This document shows positions 1 through 7,239 of a DNA stretch of 7,239 bases, piece after piece. This stretch comes from a bacterium (GTDB lineage: Bacteria > Coprothermobacterota > Coprothermobacteria > Coprothermobacterales > JAADFF01). The position numbers and the translations under genes were made by a program. The notes under the pieces were generated by a model. It had not been told where the DNA came from. It ran no database searches and saw only the letters and a program-made list of their open reading frames with translations. The stretch's first letter is position 1. Every line of letters starts with the position of its first letter. The DNA lies in assembly GCA_027063755.1 (NCBI GenBank), contig JAMORD010000092.1:1-7239 (forward strand), in the 5' to 3' direction.

Positions 1-723
1 TATACCTGTAGACACCGATGAATTTAAGAGTATGCGTAGCACTTGGGGATGTGTCATAAGCCATATAAACTCCTTGGTGGCCGATAAACTGCTTCGTTTC
101 TTCATGCCCTTCTCATCTATGTAATCTGGGTAGGAGAGTATATTTAAAAAGTTTATCGTCATGAAAAAGGTAGAGGCAATGAAAGTTGTCTTGTAATCTC
201 CCCACAGGACTATGAGCAGTCCTGACAGTAGTGCATTGATAGCGGCTCCAATCTGCCACCAGCTTCTTACACTGCCATAGTATTGTTTTCTTATGTGCTG
301 TAGTTCATGTATTTTCAAATAGCTCATAATCATGGCATTGTGTGTGCCACTGCGAAATGCCTCTGCAGCACCGAGCATAAACATGGCCCATGCAAAGAAA
401 TAAAAACTTTTCATGAAGAGAAATAGTGGCAATATAAGTATATAGATACCCATTGATATCAGTAGAGCCTTTTTTCTGCCGTATGTATCGGCTATAATAC
501 CCGTGGGTATCTCCAGTATATTAACGGCAAACTCTCTTATGGCGTATAATATGCCTATTTGGAAATATGATAGACCTACCGAGAGAAAATATAAGAGCAT
601 GAATGGCTGGTATAGTCTTAGGTTCTTCAAAAATCCATATGCGGCAAATTTTATGTATTGGATATCCTTTTTCCATTCCATAGCCCTATCATTATACAGG
701 GCTGGTGCATAAATATTTGACAT
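1..723 (-). CDS. MFS transporter, N-terminal part (gene runs off the left edge)
   Basis: Read on the minus strand from an ATG at 723-721, the frame stays open for 241 codons to the window edge, so only the N-terminal half is present. The protein is strongly hydrophobic, with helices at about residues 40-60, 63-80, 86-105, 107-125, 155-175 and 180-197. Residues 75-87 hold a good MFS motif A (G75, A78-D79, G82-R83-K84-K85) in the loop between helices 2 and 3, preceded by an EIPTG turn that is common in drug/proton antiporter-like MFS proteins. These features support a proton- or solute-coupled inner-membrane carrier. The substrate cannot be read from this half. The start is the first ATG after the divergent promoter region. 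Its ribosome binding site is weak (AAGG immediately upstream), so Met15 is an alternative start. The gene is divergent from the secreted stalk protein at 780. Confidence 0.85.
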   Translation of the reverse strand, partial: MSNIYAPALYNDRAMEWKKDIQYIKFAAYGFLKNLRLYQPFMLLYFLSVGLSYFQIGILYAIREFAVNILEIPTGIIADTYGRKKALLISMGIYILILPLFLFMKSFYFFAWAMFMLGAAEAFRSGTHNAMIMSYLKIHELQHIRKQYYGSVRSWWQIGAAINALLSGLLIVLWGDYKTTFIASTFFMTINFLNILSYPDYIDEKGMKKRSSLSATKEFIWLMTHPQVLRILLNSSVSTGI

Positions 724-2105: not shown

Positions 2106-2136
2106 GTATAGAAACTATATATTTACTTAGTCTTTA

Positions 2137-2170
2137 TACAATGGCCGATAAAATCGGCCATTGTATTTTT
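2137..2170 (+). terminator. Rho-independent terminator after the stalk-protein gene
   Basis: A perfect 13-bp stem (2137-2149 pairing with 2153-2165) with a 3-nt AAA loop is followed by a run of five T. It isolates the stalk-protein gene from the downstream cluster. Confidence 0.92.
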
Positions 2171-2261: not shown

Positions 2262-2291
2262 TTGTTTGTATTGTTTATCACCTTATATAAT
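2262..2291 (+). promoter_or_regulatory. Probable promoter of the cysteine-rich peptide cluster
   Basis: A perfect -10 box TATAAT (2286-2291) is preceded, with an 18-bp spacer, by TTGTTT (2262-2267), a partial match to the -35 consensus. Transcription would begin near 2298, almost exactly where the 54-bp tandem repeat begins (2297). The leader would then be only about 29 nt before the first ATG. The weak -35 could mean that an activator is needed. The remaining spacer 2171-2261 is A/T-rich with nothing else recognisable. Confidence 0.5.
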
Positions 2292-2296
2292 TGCGG

Positions 2297-2423
2297 TTTG
2301 TAAACCCAATGAAAGGAGGTGTTAATATGAAGGAGTTGTGGTATGATTACTTTGTAAACCCAATGAAAGGAGGTGTTAATATGAAGGAGTTGTGGTATGA
2401 TTACTTTGTAAACCCAATGAAAG
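2297..2423 (+). repeat. 54-bp tandem direct repeat (2.35 copies) carrying RBS and start codon
   Basis: Copies lie at 2297-2350 and 2351-2404 and are identical over all 54 bp. A third partial copy of 19 bp (2405-2423, TTTGTAAACCCAATGAAAG) follows. The period is 18 codons, so the repeat is in frame. Each full copy contains the ribosome binding site AAAGGAGGTG (2312-2321 and 2366-2375) placed 5 nt before an ATG (2327 and 2381). The structure is A-B-A-B-A with A=19 bp and B=35 bp, which is what recombination or slippage between two flanking A copies would generate from A-B-A. Confidence 0.95.
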
Positions 2424-2809
2424 ATATAGTTAAGCCTTTGTTGATGTGCGTTATAGTTGGTGCCGTATTCCTATCTTTCTTGTCATTTATTCCCAATGTT
2501 TCTGCTGACACAAAGCCTTTACAACCACATGTTTGTGGTGCTGCAAAAGCTGATAGTAGCAATTCCCATCTAAGTAATAAACTCGGCCATGGCAATGTTG
2601 TTCTTCCAACTTCTGGTAATGTAGCTTGCAATGGAGATTGTGTGAAAACTGGTGATTATTGTTATAGGTGTGAGGGGGCTTGTCCGCATAATCCCGGAAT
2701 GGTAAGTCAGCTTATTGGGACCGAGAAGGCTTGTTTGTGGAATGGAATTCCCCGCAGGGCTTGTTGTGATCCTTGGACTACATACTGCACAGTACATTGC
2801 ATGGAATGA
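2327..2809 (+). CDS. Cysteine-rich secreted peptide precursor, bacteriocin-like; two alternative in-frame starts
   Basis: From ATG 2327 the product is 160 residues, and from the equally good ATG 2381 it is 142 residues. Both starts have the same ribosome binding site. The extra 18 residues only duplicate the N-terminal segment. Numbering from the shorter form, a polar region of 18 residues precedes a hydrophobic core (19-38) and a likely SPase I site NVSA|D after Ala42, leaving a mature part of exactly 100 residues. That part has 11 Cys, at mature positions 10, 41, 45, 52, 55, 59, 76, 86, 87, 94 and 98, including an adjacent Cys pair. This pattern fits a disulfide-knotted or metal-binding secreted peptide. 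A permease and ABC ATPase of bacteriocin-associated type follow directly, which suggests an antimicrobial or signalling peptide. I do not recognise the family. An internal ATG at 2417 would give a normal 30-residue signal peptide but has no ribosome binding site. An upstream TTG at 2291 lies before the predicted transcript start. Confidence 0.85.
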   Translation: MKELWYDYFVNPMKGGVNMKELWYDYFVNPMKDIVKPLLMCVIVGAVFLSFLSFIPNVSADTKPLQPHVCGAAKADSSNSHLSNKLGHGNVVLPTSGNVACNGDCVKTGDYCYRCEGACPHNPGMVSQLIGTEKACLWNGIPRRACCDPWTTYCTVHCME

Positions 2810-2823
2810 GAGGTTAGATAGAT

Positions 2824-4872
2824 ATGAAGGGAATGAAGGTTGTCATATATACCCTATTTTTTCTGATATTTTTCCTGGTTGCCGATTTAGTAAGTATATT
2901 TACCCCTATCTTGGTAGGAGATGTATATATTCAAGGTAGACCAGTTCCCGGCGATGGTAGAGTTATTTACCGCTATCCTATGAAGACATACCTCAAGCAT
3001 AATTTGATGTATAAAACACCAGAACTGTCTGTGGGACTTATATCTGCAAGAGTTGCCAGAACAACCTCTATACTCAATGGTTTAGATGCACAAAGTGTTC
3101 TAACTGGTGTTCTAAGTGGTCAAACTGCGACTAAACTTATAAACTCGGCCCATAATCACAATGTAAAGATAGCAGTAGCCGTTGAGTACTATATAGGTCT
3201 TGATGTAAAGGATGTTATGATAGGTGATAATATTTTTCAAGCTTGTTCTTCATCTTCTCCTGTAATTCTGTCATCGTTATCGTTTATGAGTAACTCTTGC
3301 AAACCAGAGGGGTATCAATGGGTAGACGATGCTAATTTTCCTTATAGTTCTAAAATAAAATACATATTTGTGAAGGGTAATTACCGTGATATAAAGAAAT
3401 TTTTAAGAGATAATGGTATTAATCTTGTGACTCCCTCTTATTTTGGGGGGATGTTTTTCCTTAACTTTTCTTTGGGGTTGCTGGTTTTTTCTGTGGTATT
3501 ACTACTTATCACAATTATCGCTTATGTGTCCATGTTACGAATGAGTATACGTAAGGATGTTGTGAAAAATTCTAGAAGGTTCTTTGTGTATTATGCTTTG
3601 GGAAGATCTTTAAGGGATTTGTCTTTGTGGGCTTTATCTATGGAAATGTTGCAAGTGTTTTTGGCTATAATATTTGCTTGGTTGCTTGACAGGATCTTTG
3701 ATGAAATTAGGTATATACCACTGTCTCATGCTTTAACCTTTGTGATGGGGTTAAGGGGTAAAGTTGCGTACTATTATATTGCTCCCTCCATAACTTGGAG
3801 ATTAATATTGGTAGTTTTCTTTGCATTGTTTGTGGCTCTCTTCTTTTACTATTTATTCCGTGAGGATTTAAAGGGTGCATTTTACCGTCGTGGTGTAGCT
3901 GTTTTGCCATCTTCAATTATTGTTACACTATCGTTTGTAGTAACATCCGTGATGATTATTCTTGCTATATGGGGGGTAACGGTTTTTACCCGTTTGCATC
4001 TAATACAATCTGTCTATTCTCCTTCTGGCTATGTGGTCCAAGACAACGACCTAGAGCTATCTCTATTAGATGGCCATTCCATGAGACAGCTTGTTAAAAG
4101 TGGCAGTGTTTCTTTGGCAAGGGTTATATTTGTGGCCTCTGAAAATACCTTATATACATGCTATACCCCCGATATGAAAAGCTTTATAGATAGGCAGCTA
4201 CCGTTAATTAATACACTCTGGGCAGATGGAAAGGCACAAGTGATTCATGATTGCCGAAAAATTACTAATAGCATACTGTATGCAGATGGAGTATTGGATA
4301 TAACATATGTTCCATCTAATCAGGTAGATAAGTTTGTTGGTGCATATATCTCCATTAAAGCTCAAATGCATAATGAAATTGTTAAGCACGCAGGTGTTAA
4401 TAGTAGTTTTAATGCCAATCAGTTAAAAGAAAATATCAGGTACATGTTCTATAGGGCTAATAATAAGATTAATAGGGCGATGGAGAGGGGATACTTTATA
4501 TTTCTTTCATTCTCTCTTGTTAGTTTGCTTATCTTTCTGGCTTTTATGATAGCTATAGCTGAGATTATGTTAAAGCTTATGCCATTCCGTTTGGCGGTTT
4601 ATATGATAAGTGGCTACACCTTGAGGCAAGGGTTAAAGTCTATGATGTCAAGGCTGCTTAAGTGGATTACTCTTGCATCTGTAGTGGGAGGGTTGCTTGG
4701 GTATTGGTTAGCTACTATTATATGGCGTAAGTTGGGATGGAATTTCCCTTCTGCTATATGGGTGTTGGCTGTTGTTATATTTATTCCTGCTGTTAGTTAT
4801 CTTGGTATGGAACTGGCAACATTGCGTTTAAGAAAAGAAGGAGTCGTGAAGATCCTTAAGGCCGATCTATGA
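2824..4872 (+). CDS. Bacteriocin-associated ABC permease (DUF1430-like, FtsX/MacB-type)
   Basis: This 682-residue membrane protein has about eight helices, near residues 6-31, 213-239, 266-287, 327-346, 363-390, 556-583, 613-633 and 643-665. Two large extracytoplasmic domains (about 32-212 and 391-555) give two similar halves, each being helix, ectodomain, three helices. Each half carries an LG/SG-type coupling helix after its second helix (YYALGRSLRD at 256-265 and YMISGYTLRQG at 593-603). The C-terminus (LRKEGVVKILKADL) is typical of FtsX/MacB-like permeases. Length and layout match the bacteriocin-associated integral membrane proteins found beside lactococcin-972-type peptides. It should pair with the ATPase encoded next, for export of or protection against the peptide encoded just upstream. 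The only four Cys residues (141, 159, 446, 477) fall two per ectodomain, which suggests one disulfide in each. The start is ATG 2824 with GAGAGGT at 2808-2814 overlapping the upstream stop, so coupling is likely. Family assignment is from pattern memory. Confidence 0.85.
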   Translation: MKGMKVVIYTLFFLIFFLVADLVSIFTPILVGDVYIQGRPVPGDGRVIYRYPMKTYLKHNLMYKTPELSVGLISARVARTTSILNGLDAQSVLTGVLSGQTATKLINSAHNHNVKIAVAVEYYIGLDVKDVMIGDNIFQACSSSSPVILSSLSFMSNSCKPEGYQWVDDANFPYSSKIKYIFVKGNYRDIKKFLRDNGINLVTPSYFGGMFFLNFSLGLLVFSVVLLLITIIAYVSMLRMSIRKDVVKNSRRFFVYYALGRSLRDLSLWALSMEMLQVFLAIIFAWLLDRIFDEIRYIPLSHALTFVMGLRGKVAYYYIAPSITWRLILVVFFALFVALFFYYLFREDLKGAFYRRGVAVLPSSIIVTLSFVVTSVMIILAIWGVTVFTRLHLIQSVYSPSGYVVQDNDLELSLLDGHSMRQLVKSGSVSLARVIFVASENTLYTCYTPDMKSFIDRQLPLINTLWADGKAQVIHDCRKITNSILYADGVLDITYVPSNQVDKFVGAYISIKAQMHNEIVKHAGVNSSFNANQLKENIRYMFYRANNKINRAMERGYFIFLSFSLVSLLIFLAFMIAIAEIMLKLMPFRLAVYMISGYTLRQGLKSMMSRLLKWITLASVVGGLLGYWLATIIWRKLGWNFPSAIWVLAVVIFIPAVSYLGMELATLRLRKEGVVKILKADL

Positions 4873-4885
4873 GGGGGAATGGGAT

Positions 4886-5557
4886 ATGGAGATTATAAAG
4901 CTTGAATCTATTGAGAAGTATTATCGTACCCGTTATGAAGAAGTGCATGCCTTAAGAGGTGTGAGTTTATCTGTCAATGAGGGAGAAAAAATTGTTGTGA
5001 TGGGGCCTAGTGGTAGTGGAAAAAGTACTCTTCTGCACATTTTAGCGTTTTTAGATAATCCGGATGATGGCAAGAGATATATTCTTGGTGAAGATAAGAC
5101 ACAAGTTGGTGATACAGAGGCGGCAAGACTTAGAAGAGATATGTTTGGATTTGTATTTCAAGAGTTCAATATTATACCGGAAATGACAGTAGAAGAAAAT
5201 GTGCAGTTGCCATTGAAGATAAAGAAAGTGCCACTTGCAGAACAGAAAAATTATGTGGAAAAAGCACTAAAAGCTGTAGGACTTATTGACAAGAGGAACA
5301 GAAAGGCATATGAGCTTTCTGGGGGAGAAAGACAAAGAGTGGCTATAGCTCGGGCTGTAGCTAGTGATAGCAAGGTACTTGTCATGGATGAGCCAACAGG
5401 TAACTTAGATGAGGAAACGGAAAAGGAAATTGTCAAACTCATACTCGGCCTGAATGAGCAGGGTAAAACCCTTGTTGTGGTGACCCATAGCGATAGATTG
5501 GCTCGTCTTATAGATGGCAAGTTGTATCACATGGAAGACGGAAAACTTTATAAGTAA
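4886..5557 (+). CDS. ABC transporter ATPase (MacB/LolD-type, bacteriocin-associated)
   Basis: This 223-residue nucleotide-binding subunit has every motif: Walker A GPSGSGKST (40-48), Q-loop Gln92 in GFVFQEFN, signature LSGGERQRVAIARA (144-157), Walker B with catalytic glutamate KVLVMDEP (163-170), D-loop NLD (173-175) and H-loop His201. A length near 220 and the FGFVFQ/IIP pattern place it in the MacB/LolD/FtsE group, whose members power mechanotransmission or export through FtsX-like permeases. It should bind ATP at the cytoplasmic face of the permease encoded immediately upstream. The intergenic gap is 13 nt, and its ribosome binding site GAGGGGGAA (4871-4879) overlaps the permease stop codon, so the two are translationally coupled and probably made at matched levels. 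No motif is missing. Confidence 0.95.
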   Translation: MEIIKLESIEKYYRTRYEEVHALRGVSLSVNEGEKIVVMGPSGSGKSTLLHILAFLDNPDDGKRYILGEDKTQVGDTEAARLRRDMFGFVFQEFNIIPEMTVEENVQLPLKIKKVPLAEQKNYVEKALKAVGLIDKRNRKAYELSGGERQRVAIARAVASDSKVLVMDEPTGNLDEETEKEIVKLILGLNEQGKTLVVVTHSDRLARLIDGKLYHMEDGKLYK

Positions 5558-5580: not shown

Positions 5581-5910
5581 ATGGATAGCAGATGTGGTTT
5601 TGTGTCTTTAAAGGAATTGCTGGAGATAGCGGATATATTGTGTAAGTTTTTCTCAAAGTACGATTGGGAGAAAAATGGGAATACTAAAGATATTATTCGT
5701 TTGGTAAGTGAGCTTGCTGAGCCATATCAGCCTGTAAATAAAACTTATGCCGAGGATATGATTAGAGATTGTCTACAGAACCTTAAGCAACATTCAGGAG
5801 CAAAGGTCTTTGTATTTGGGGGAACAGAGGAAGACATGTGGGTTGCCACATGGGTAGGAAGAGTAGACGCTACAGACATATTAGCCCTTGTGTATCTTAA
5901 AGTGTGCTAG
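5581..5910 (+). CDS. Small soluble protein of unknown function, candidate immunity or accessory protein
   Basis: This 109-residue protein has no signal peptide or membrane helix, so it is probably cytosolic. The N-terminal 65 residues look helical (LKELLEIADILCKFF; TKDIIRLVSELAE; YAEDMIRDCLQNL). The last 35 residues look like beta strands (AKVFVFGG; DMWVATWVG; ILALVYLKVC), giving a small alpha+beta fold that ends in a C-terminal Cys. I do not recognise the family. It starts 23 nt after the ATPase, with AAAGGGGG at 5563-5570 ahead of ATG 5581. A nearer ATG at 5571 opens only a five-codon frame. Its place between the ABC pair and a second secreted protein would suit an immunity protein or a regulator of the system, but nothing in the sequence proves it. 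Confidence 0.75.
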   Translation: MDSRCGFVSLKELLEIADILCKFFSKYDWEKNGNTKDIIRLVSELAEPYQPVNKTYAEDMIRDCLQNLKQHSGAKVFVFGGTEEDMWVATWVGRVDATDILALVYLKVC

Positions 5911-5943: not shown

Positions 5944-6978
5944 GTGTTGAAAAGGTTGTTCATTGGTTTGATTGTATCTAGTGTGTTTTTTTCTGTTGTG
6001 ATAATCTTGACATTTAGTGTATCTTTGGAAGTTAACGGGCAAACTTTTGTATGCCGTGGAGCATGGAATGTATGGAGATTTTATAACAGATTAGGTGAAG
6101 TGGCGGATCTTATTTACATATCAAGTGAAGATATAGATACTGGAGATATTTATGAGCGTTTAGATGCTATGTGTTATGGTTCCGAGAAGAAATATGAGGA
6201 AGTTATGGGAAAATATATATCGGCAGTTTTAAAGAGTGGTAAAGCAGTTTGGGATCAAGAGAGTTGGAGTAATTCGCAAATAGTAAATAAATGGTTAGAT
6301 ACACATGGTACTATCAGATTAAATAACACGCCCAGTGTCTTCCTGACGGGAAGCGGTTATGGTACTTTGAGGCTTAAAGAACCGGAAATGGAGCTAGGTA
6401 GTCCTTTAGCAAAGGTGAAGTTTAGAGGTACTATAAAGATTACAAATTATGGCAATAAGGTGTATGCAAGAATAGAAAAGTTGGAAATAGGTAAGCCTTG
6501 GGGAACAGGGACATGGATATTTACAGATGATAATTGGCCATGTTGGATAGGAGCAGCCAAGGATAAAGGAAGAAAGGAATATGGTAGCTTTCAATGGTAT
6601 GGTACTGCGTTAGGGTTGTTTAGATATCATACAGACACTCATCATGTTGGACCACCGGAGACCAAGCTTGTGGAGGCACAATATGCCGATGGAAGAGGTA
6701 AGACGGTAATGATTAGGATGCAGAATGGGGACTCTGCTGTTGCTAAAGTGGGTTATCATGCCGAGGTTGTATGGCAGGGTAGTATAAACTTGGGTGTTAA
6801 CTTGGGATGGGTGAGTCAGCGTGGTTCTGGAGTAAGTGCTGGGATCTCTATTCCCTTTGTGACTTCTCATCGTTGGGACCCGTATATAGGGATTCGGCTT
6901 GACATGGATAGAGATGGTGCCATACAGTGGCAGAGTGTAGTTGAAAGTCCTGATAAAAATCCAGGTTGGTGCAATTGA
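5944..6978 (+). CDS. Secreted or membrane-anchored protein of unknown family, Trp/Gly-rich C-terminal half
   Basis: This 344-residue protein begins with basic residues and a hydrophobic helix (5-28), and no clear SPase I site follows. It is therefore either exported with an unusual cleavage near VNGQ (30-33) or held as an N-terminal membrane anchor facing outward. The region about 37-135 looks mixed helical. From about 140 onward it looks beta-rich with many aromatic and Gly residues. There are four Cys (37, 77, 200, 343), with the last at the penultimate position. A His/Asp cluster (H229, D231, H233, H234) and a DxDxDG loop (D320, D322, D324, G325) could bind metal, the latter Ca2+. The ribosome binding site AAGGGGGGA (5932-5940) could serve GTG 5944 or the adjacent TTG 5947, which is better spaced, giving 343 residues. 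As last gene of the cluster it could be a second effector or a maturation or surface-retention factor. The family is unknown. Confidence 0.8.
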   Translation: MLKRLFIGLIVSSVFFSVVIILTFSVSLEVNGQTFVCRGAWNVWRFYNRLGEVADLIYISSEDIDTGDIYERLDAMCYGSEKKYEEVMGKYISAVLKSGKAVWDQESWSNSQIVNKWLDTHGTIRLNNTPSVFLTGSGYGTLRLKEPEMELGSPLAKVKFRGTIKITNYGNKVYARIEKLEIGKPWGTGTWIFTDDNWPCWIGAAKDKGRKEYGSFQWYGTALGLFRYHTDTHHVGPPETKLVEAQYADGRGKTVMIRMQNGDSAVAKVGYHAEVVWQGSINLGVNLGWVSQRGSGVSAGISIPFVTSHRWDPYIGIRLDMDRDGAIQWQSVVESPDKNPGWCN

Positions 6979-7086: not shown

Positions 7087-7122
7087 AAAGTGGATTGAAT
7101 AAAAGTATACAAAAATACACGA

Positions 7123-7150
7123 TTGACGAGGATACAAAAGCTGGTATACT
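7123..7150 (+). promoter_or_regulatory. Strong extended -10 sigma-A promoter
   Basis: TTGACG (7123-7128) and TATACT (7145-7150) are separated by 16 bp, and the -10 box is preceded by TGG (7142-7144), giving the extended -10 TGn motif. Transcription would start near 7157, at the first base pairs of the predicted outer stem of the RNA that follows. ATACAAAA occurs twice (7107-7114 and 7132-7139) around the -35 box. Confidence 0.75.
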
Positions 7151-7155
7151 AATAA

Positions 7156-7239
7156 CTGCCTGCCTGGGGAGAGAGAAAACCGGGCACGGCGAGAGAGCGG
7201 GAACGCGACCAAGCAGGGGACGAAAGGAAAAGGCAGTGA
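7156..7239 (+). ncRNA. Probable structured RNA or leader, 5' part, unidentified (truncated by the window edge)
   Basis: Directly downstream of the extended -10 promoter the sequence becomes G+C-rich and contains no T at all from 7166 to 7236 (71 nt), unlike the A/T-rich surroundings. CTGCCT (7156-7161) can pair with AGGCAG (7231-7236) as a closing stem. Inside it, CCTG (7163-7166) can pair with CAGG (7214-7217), and GCG/CGC (7197-7199 with 7204-7206) encloses a GGAA loop of GNRA type. I compared it from memory with common riboswitch and ncRNA classes and found no match. A GTG at 7236-7238 preceded by GAAAGGAAA could instead start a coding region, which would make this a leader. Confidence 0.45.

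Follow-up and report, generated by a model that had tools for sequence, protein, structure and literature searches.

The locus raises the question of how one bacterial gene came to carry two identical start regions, and of what the second of them does. The window, that is the whole stretch of 7,239 nucleotides analysed here, corresponds to contig 92 in a 1.5-Mb draft genome. At positions 2297 to 2423, TRF detected a tandem repeat with a period of 54, 2.35 copies, 100% match and no indels, and repeat finding returned two units of 54 bp and three of 19 bp, all at 100%. The array has the exact structure A-B-A-B-A, in which A measures 19 bp and B 35 bp:

2297 to 2350, plus strand: repeat copy 1 (A 2297-2315, B 2316-2350), with the SD sequence AAAGGAGGTG at 2312-2321 and ATG at 2327-2329
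2351 to 2404, plus strand: repeat copy 2 (A 2351-2369, B 2370-2404), with the SD sequence at 2366-2375 and ATG at 2381-2383
2405 to 2423, plus strand: third A element, 19 bp, encoding the signal-peptide n-region residues FVNPMK

These data bear out, with zero mismatches, the perfect 54-bp tandem duplication claimed in an earlier sequence-only reading. The longest exact repeat within the array is 73 bp. For a 73-base exact periodic match the chance expectation in the window is about 10^-36 (about 10^-4.5 for the 19-bp match alone), and such a periodicity cannot result from chance. The duplication could be an artefact of a draft or metagenomic assembly, the true number of units being one or something other than two. 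The fragmented state of the genome (251 contigs, 88% complete) favours such an error, as does the overlap of window positions 1-302 with the end of contig C197, where 4 mismatches in 302 bp make a strain mixture likely; the assembly may mix close strains. However, repeats of this size tend toward collapse rather than expansion, and a longest exact repeat of 73 bp fits ordinary short reads and k-mers. We therefore regard an artefact as very improbable.

The rarity of the array was evaluated in a background sample of 516,288 bp, a third of the genome, composed of whole contigs and large stretches. With minima set at 0.8 of an extra copy and at 24 bases, and for periods of 15 to 399, it is the sole perfect tandem duplication in this sample. 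The next-best array found there by TRF is imperfect, with 77% matches and a score of 88 versus 254, and across the whole genome the entire array has a single occurrence. Beyond its 127 bp, similarity in register 54 is at background level on either side, so that no eroded additional copies are visible in the flanks. Double starts in themselves are not unusual, since in 24 of the 232 SD-led ORFs of the sample, the present gene among them, another SD-preceded start occurs in frame within 180 nt; nine of these 24 are adjacent codons sharing one SD. The duplication is thus remarkable for the host genome, the double start as such less so. Three other roles for the repeat were ruled out: element A is not a genome-wide regulatory motif (only three scattered sites elsewhere, each with 3 mismatches), and the array corresponds neither to a known RNA family nor to an RNA structure with significant folding (z of -1.75 at best).

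Both repeat copies present the same cassette, made of AAAGGAGGTG, five bases and ATG. The two ATG codons, at 2327 and 2381, and the gene belong to one open frame running from TTG 2291 to the stop codon at 2807-2809. One gene is hence preceded by two complete and identical RBS-plus-start cassettes in a common frame, as had been proposed; a 54-bp period falls in frame by chance in 1 case out of 3. Pairing of the SD with an anti-SD assumed to be canonical, and not taken from the host genome's own sequence, gave -19.5 kcal/mol in each unit, the strongest value among the gene starts tested. Folding between 37 and 65 °C left neither SD specially exposed or hidden.

The duplicated start region belongs to a peptide gene, which heads an operon also encoding a permease and a LolD-type ATPase:

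2327 to 2809, plus strand: precursor, long form of 160 aa, from start 1
2381 to 2809, plus strand: precursor, short form of 142 aa, from start 2 (predicted signal peptide about 2381-2506, mature part 2507-2806)
2824 to 4872, plus strand: membrane protein of 682 aa, its C-terminal part resembling the permease of a sister operon
4886 to 5557, plus strand: ABC ATPase of the LolD or lactococcin-972-export type, 53% identical to the sister operon ATPase
5581 to 5910, plus strand: protein of 109 aa in the same gene run, with no Pfam or NCBIfam match
5944 to 6978, plus strand: protein of 344 aa with an N-terminal membrane anchor, of no known family, low-confidence fold prediction

The precursor translated from ATG 2381 has the sequence MKELWYDYFVNPMKDIVKP-LLMCVIVGAVFLSFLSF-IPNVSA/DTK..., the stroke marking the predicted cleavage; translation from ATG 2327 gives the same protein with 18 additional N-terminal residues. 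Downstream of both starts lies a strongly hydrophobic segment that terminates in VSA/D. Hydropathy and this motif together point to a Sec-type signal peptide with predicted cleavage after VSA, leaving a mature peptide of 100 aa with 11 cysteines. Given signal-peptidase cleavage at this site, the sequence agrees with the earlier proposal that one mature peptide would arise from both starts. The same anatomy makes a tuning by leader length, also suggested earlier, less likely to matter, because the repeat extends only the n-region of a leader that would be removed.

The peptide has no Pfam or NCBIfam match, and a search of its own genome, 98 genomes, genome contigs, viral contigs and plasmids (with nine genomes from the host's phylum in the collection) yielded neither a homologue beyond its own genome nor, anywhere in these sets, a second instance of the locus; an exact search of the viral contigs with the B segment gave no match. 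The 682-aa membrane protein likewise falls into no Pfam or NCBIfam family and has no homologue outside its own genome; structure predictions for this permease and for the 344-aa protein were of poor quality. The gene order recalls the lactococcin 972-type operons (TIGR03608 ABC ATPase), which comprise a Sec-exported small peptide, a large membrane protein and a LolD-like ATPase, in that order. Unlike lactococcin 972, the window peptide is rich in cysteines and unrelated, with no Pfam or NCBIfam match to that family, and its permease matches no family model; the ATPase lies below the TIGR03608 cut-off (206.6 versus 254.85 bits). The operon arrangement nevertheless suggests a bacteriocin-like peptide with an antibacterial role.

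Two further elements lie upstream of the gene:

2136 to 2166, plus strand: intrinsic terminator with a 14-bp stem and a T-run, belonging to the upstream gene
2262 to 2291, plus strand: possible weak promoter, -35 TTGTTT at 2262-2267, 18-bp spacer, -10 TATAAT at 2286-2291

The terminator indicates that the peptide operon probably forms its own transcription unit. Every checked detail of the earlier description held but one, the placement of the transcription start at the repeat boundary, which is only weakly supported: the -10 box is perfect, but the -35 box matches at only 3 of 6 positions, and a consensus promoter scan of the region did not report the candidate. An RNA start near 2297-2299, at the edge of the repeat, is only plausible. 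A separate promoter-like stretch, window positions 7099-7173, recurs at the termini of other contigs (G001 C15, G000 C45). Every contig sharing it stops at this point, a pattern suggestive of the 5′ flank of an operon present in several copies, perhaps rRNA.

A second operon of the same genome (L005, minus strand) encodes a Cys-rich peptide of 134 aa with 17 cysteines, a permease and an ATPase. The ATPases of the two operons are 53% identical, and the permeases 27% identical over the C-terminal 118 residues. No similarity between the two peptides was found by BLAST; by eye, their cysteine order is comparable (C-x6/7-C-x2-C-x3-C ... C-x9/10-CC-x-C-x-C). Only one start region precedes the sister peptide, and it has no repeat. 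On each side of the sister operon lies a perfect 39-bp direct repeat (L005 2058-2096 and 6046-6084, 3,988 bp apart). In another species of the genus (L103) the site is empty: the left flank is followed by a single 39-bp copy and, joined directly to it, the neighbouring aminotransferase-like gene. These observations indicate that the sister operon came by insertion. The insertion duplicated the 5′ end of the aminotransferase-like (kbl-like) gene. By inference, the duplication in the window belongs to a peptide system that is mobile and probably competitive; such mobility would also account for relatives not being found at the same place. At L005 5895-5901, the signal-peptide and mature frames of the sister gene join in a tract of seven G residues (C on the plus strand), and the 516-kb sample contains only nine G or C tracts of at least 7, this one among them. 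The tract may reflect a sequencing slip or act as a slippery site.

The anatomy of the array suggests how it may have arisen. With a period of 54, an array of 127 bases leaves a 19-bp remainder at any number of units, so that the one-unit state must be A-B-A. The one-unit ancestor would then have been a gene whose start was spanned by a 19-bp direct repeat, one A element lying just upstream of and overlapping the SD and the other within signal-peptide codons. Slippage or unequal exchange between these elements would have produced the tandem A-B duplication. The sequence-only reading had invoked a recent event or gene conversion; the zero differences between copies, and the fact that a third of the genome contains nothing comparable, argue for recency, while the two processes are inseparable. 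A single mRNA would thereafter carry two strong initiation sites in one frame, separated by 54 nt, and ribosomes loading at either of them would synthesize the 160-aa or the 142-aa precursor. Since the 18-residue difference would be removed by signal peptidase, the expected net effect is more of one mature peptide, itself unchanged. Our favoured reading, which we hold to be probable but by no means certain, is that a recent tandem duplication of the initiation region added a second functional start and raised the output of the secreted peptide. Copy number could also revert to one.

An engineered counterpart exists in Bacillus licheniformis, where tandem in-frame RBS-plus-start cassettes gave more protein as copies were added, the mRNA being unchanged (PMC9723656). 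Each site was used, with one protein band per site, and the start codons were required; secreted proteins appeared as one product size, the extra N-terminus being lost with the signal peptide (PMC9723656). The likeness to the window lies in tandem copies of SD and start codon, all in frame, ahead of a secreted protein. In contrast to the synthetic cassettes, tried at SD distances of 12-24 nt only, effective at 15-21 nt and present in up to six copies or more (PMC9723656), the window array is natural, with two copies and SDs 54 nt apart, beyond the distances tried. The use of both starts and the resulting gain in output are thus inferred for the window, as is the instability of the array. The duplication is probably unstable; such instability, and the tuning of dose suggested earlier, would be in keeping with its anatomy and with the engineered tandem in-frame RBSs.

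A neutral accident would explain the same structure differently: a recent duplication of little or no effect, caught before its loss, with only one start mattering. The locus is a single observation, devoid of homologues and of any sign of selection, and both the indifferent exposure of the two SDs at 37-65 °C and the z of -1.75 at best for array structure are compatible with such an accident. On the other hand, the array is unique in a third of the genome, and it coincides exactly with the initiation region of a gene that probably encodes a secreted weapon and whose frame is still open. On balance we find a neutral origin rather unlikely.

The A-B-A-B-A anatomy would also permit steps in copy number, as in a contingency locus where 0, 1, 2 or more units switch or grade the peptide across the population. 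Were the B segment lost, the remaining ATG, at 2417, would keep the signal peptide and have no SD. Changes in the number of leader repeats do control expression elsewhere, as in Streptococcus gallolyticus pil1 (PMC3894217), and the sister peptide gene also contains a potentially slippery site, its seven-G run. As in the window, the pil1 repeats lie in a 5′ leader before a secreted product; there, 5-bp GCAGA units alter a separate leader peptide and a terminator (PMC3894217), whereas the window unit consists of 18 codons within the gene's own start region and no attenuator was seen at the array. Repeats made of a few long units usually vary in number more slowly than those made of short ones, and every copy number stays in frame, which allows a rheostat at most. 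A contingency locus is accordingly improbable in our judgement. We give a similarly low weight to a natural copy-number rheostat, in which the in-frame SD-plus-start cassette would expand and contract within the n-region, changing the dose and keeping the mature product constant.

A search of the open-access literature found no natural duplicated in-frame RBS. If both starts are used, as in the favoured reading of a second functional start, the locus would be a natural case of a designed expression tool, in which extra in-frame starts are housed inside a cleavable signal peptide. It would then represent a simple bacterial route to more or less of a secreted peptide, with the product unchanged.
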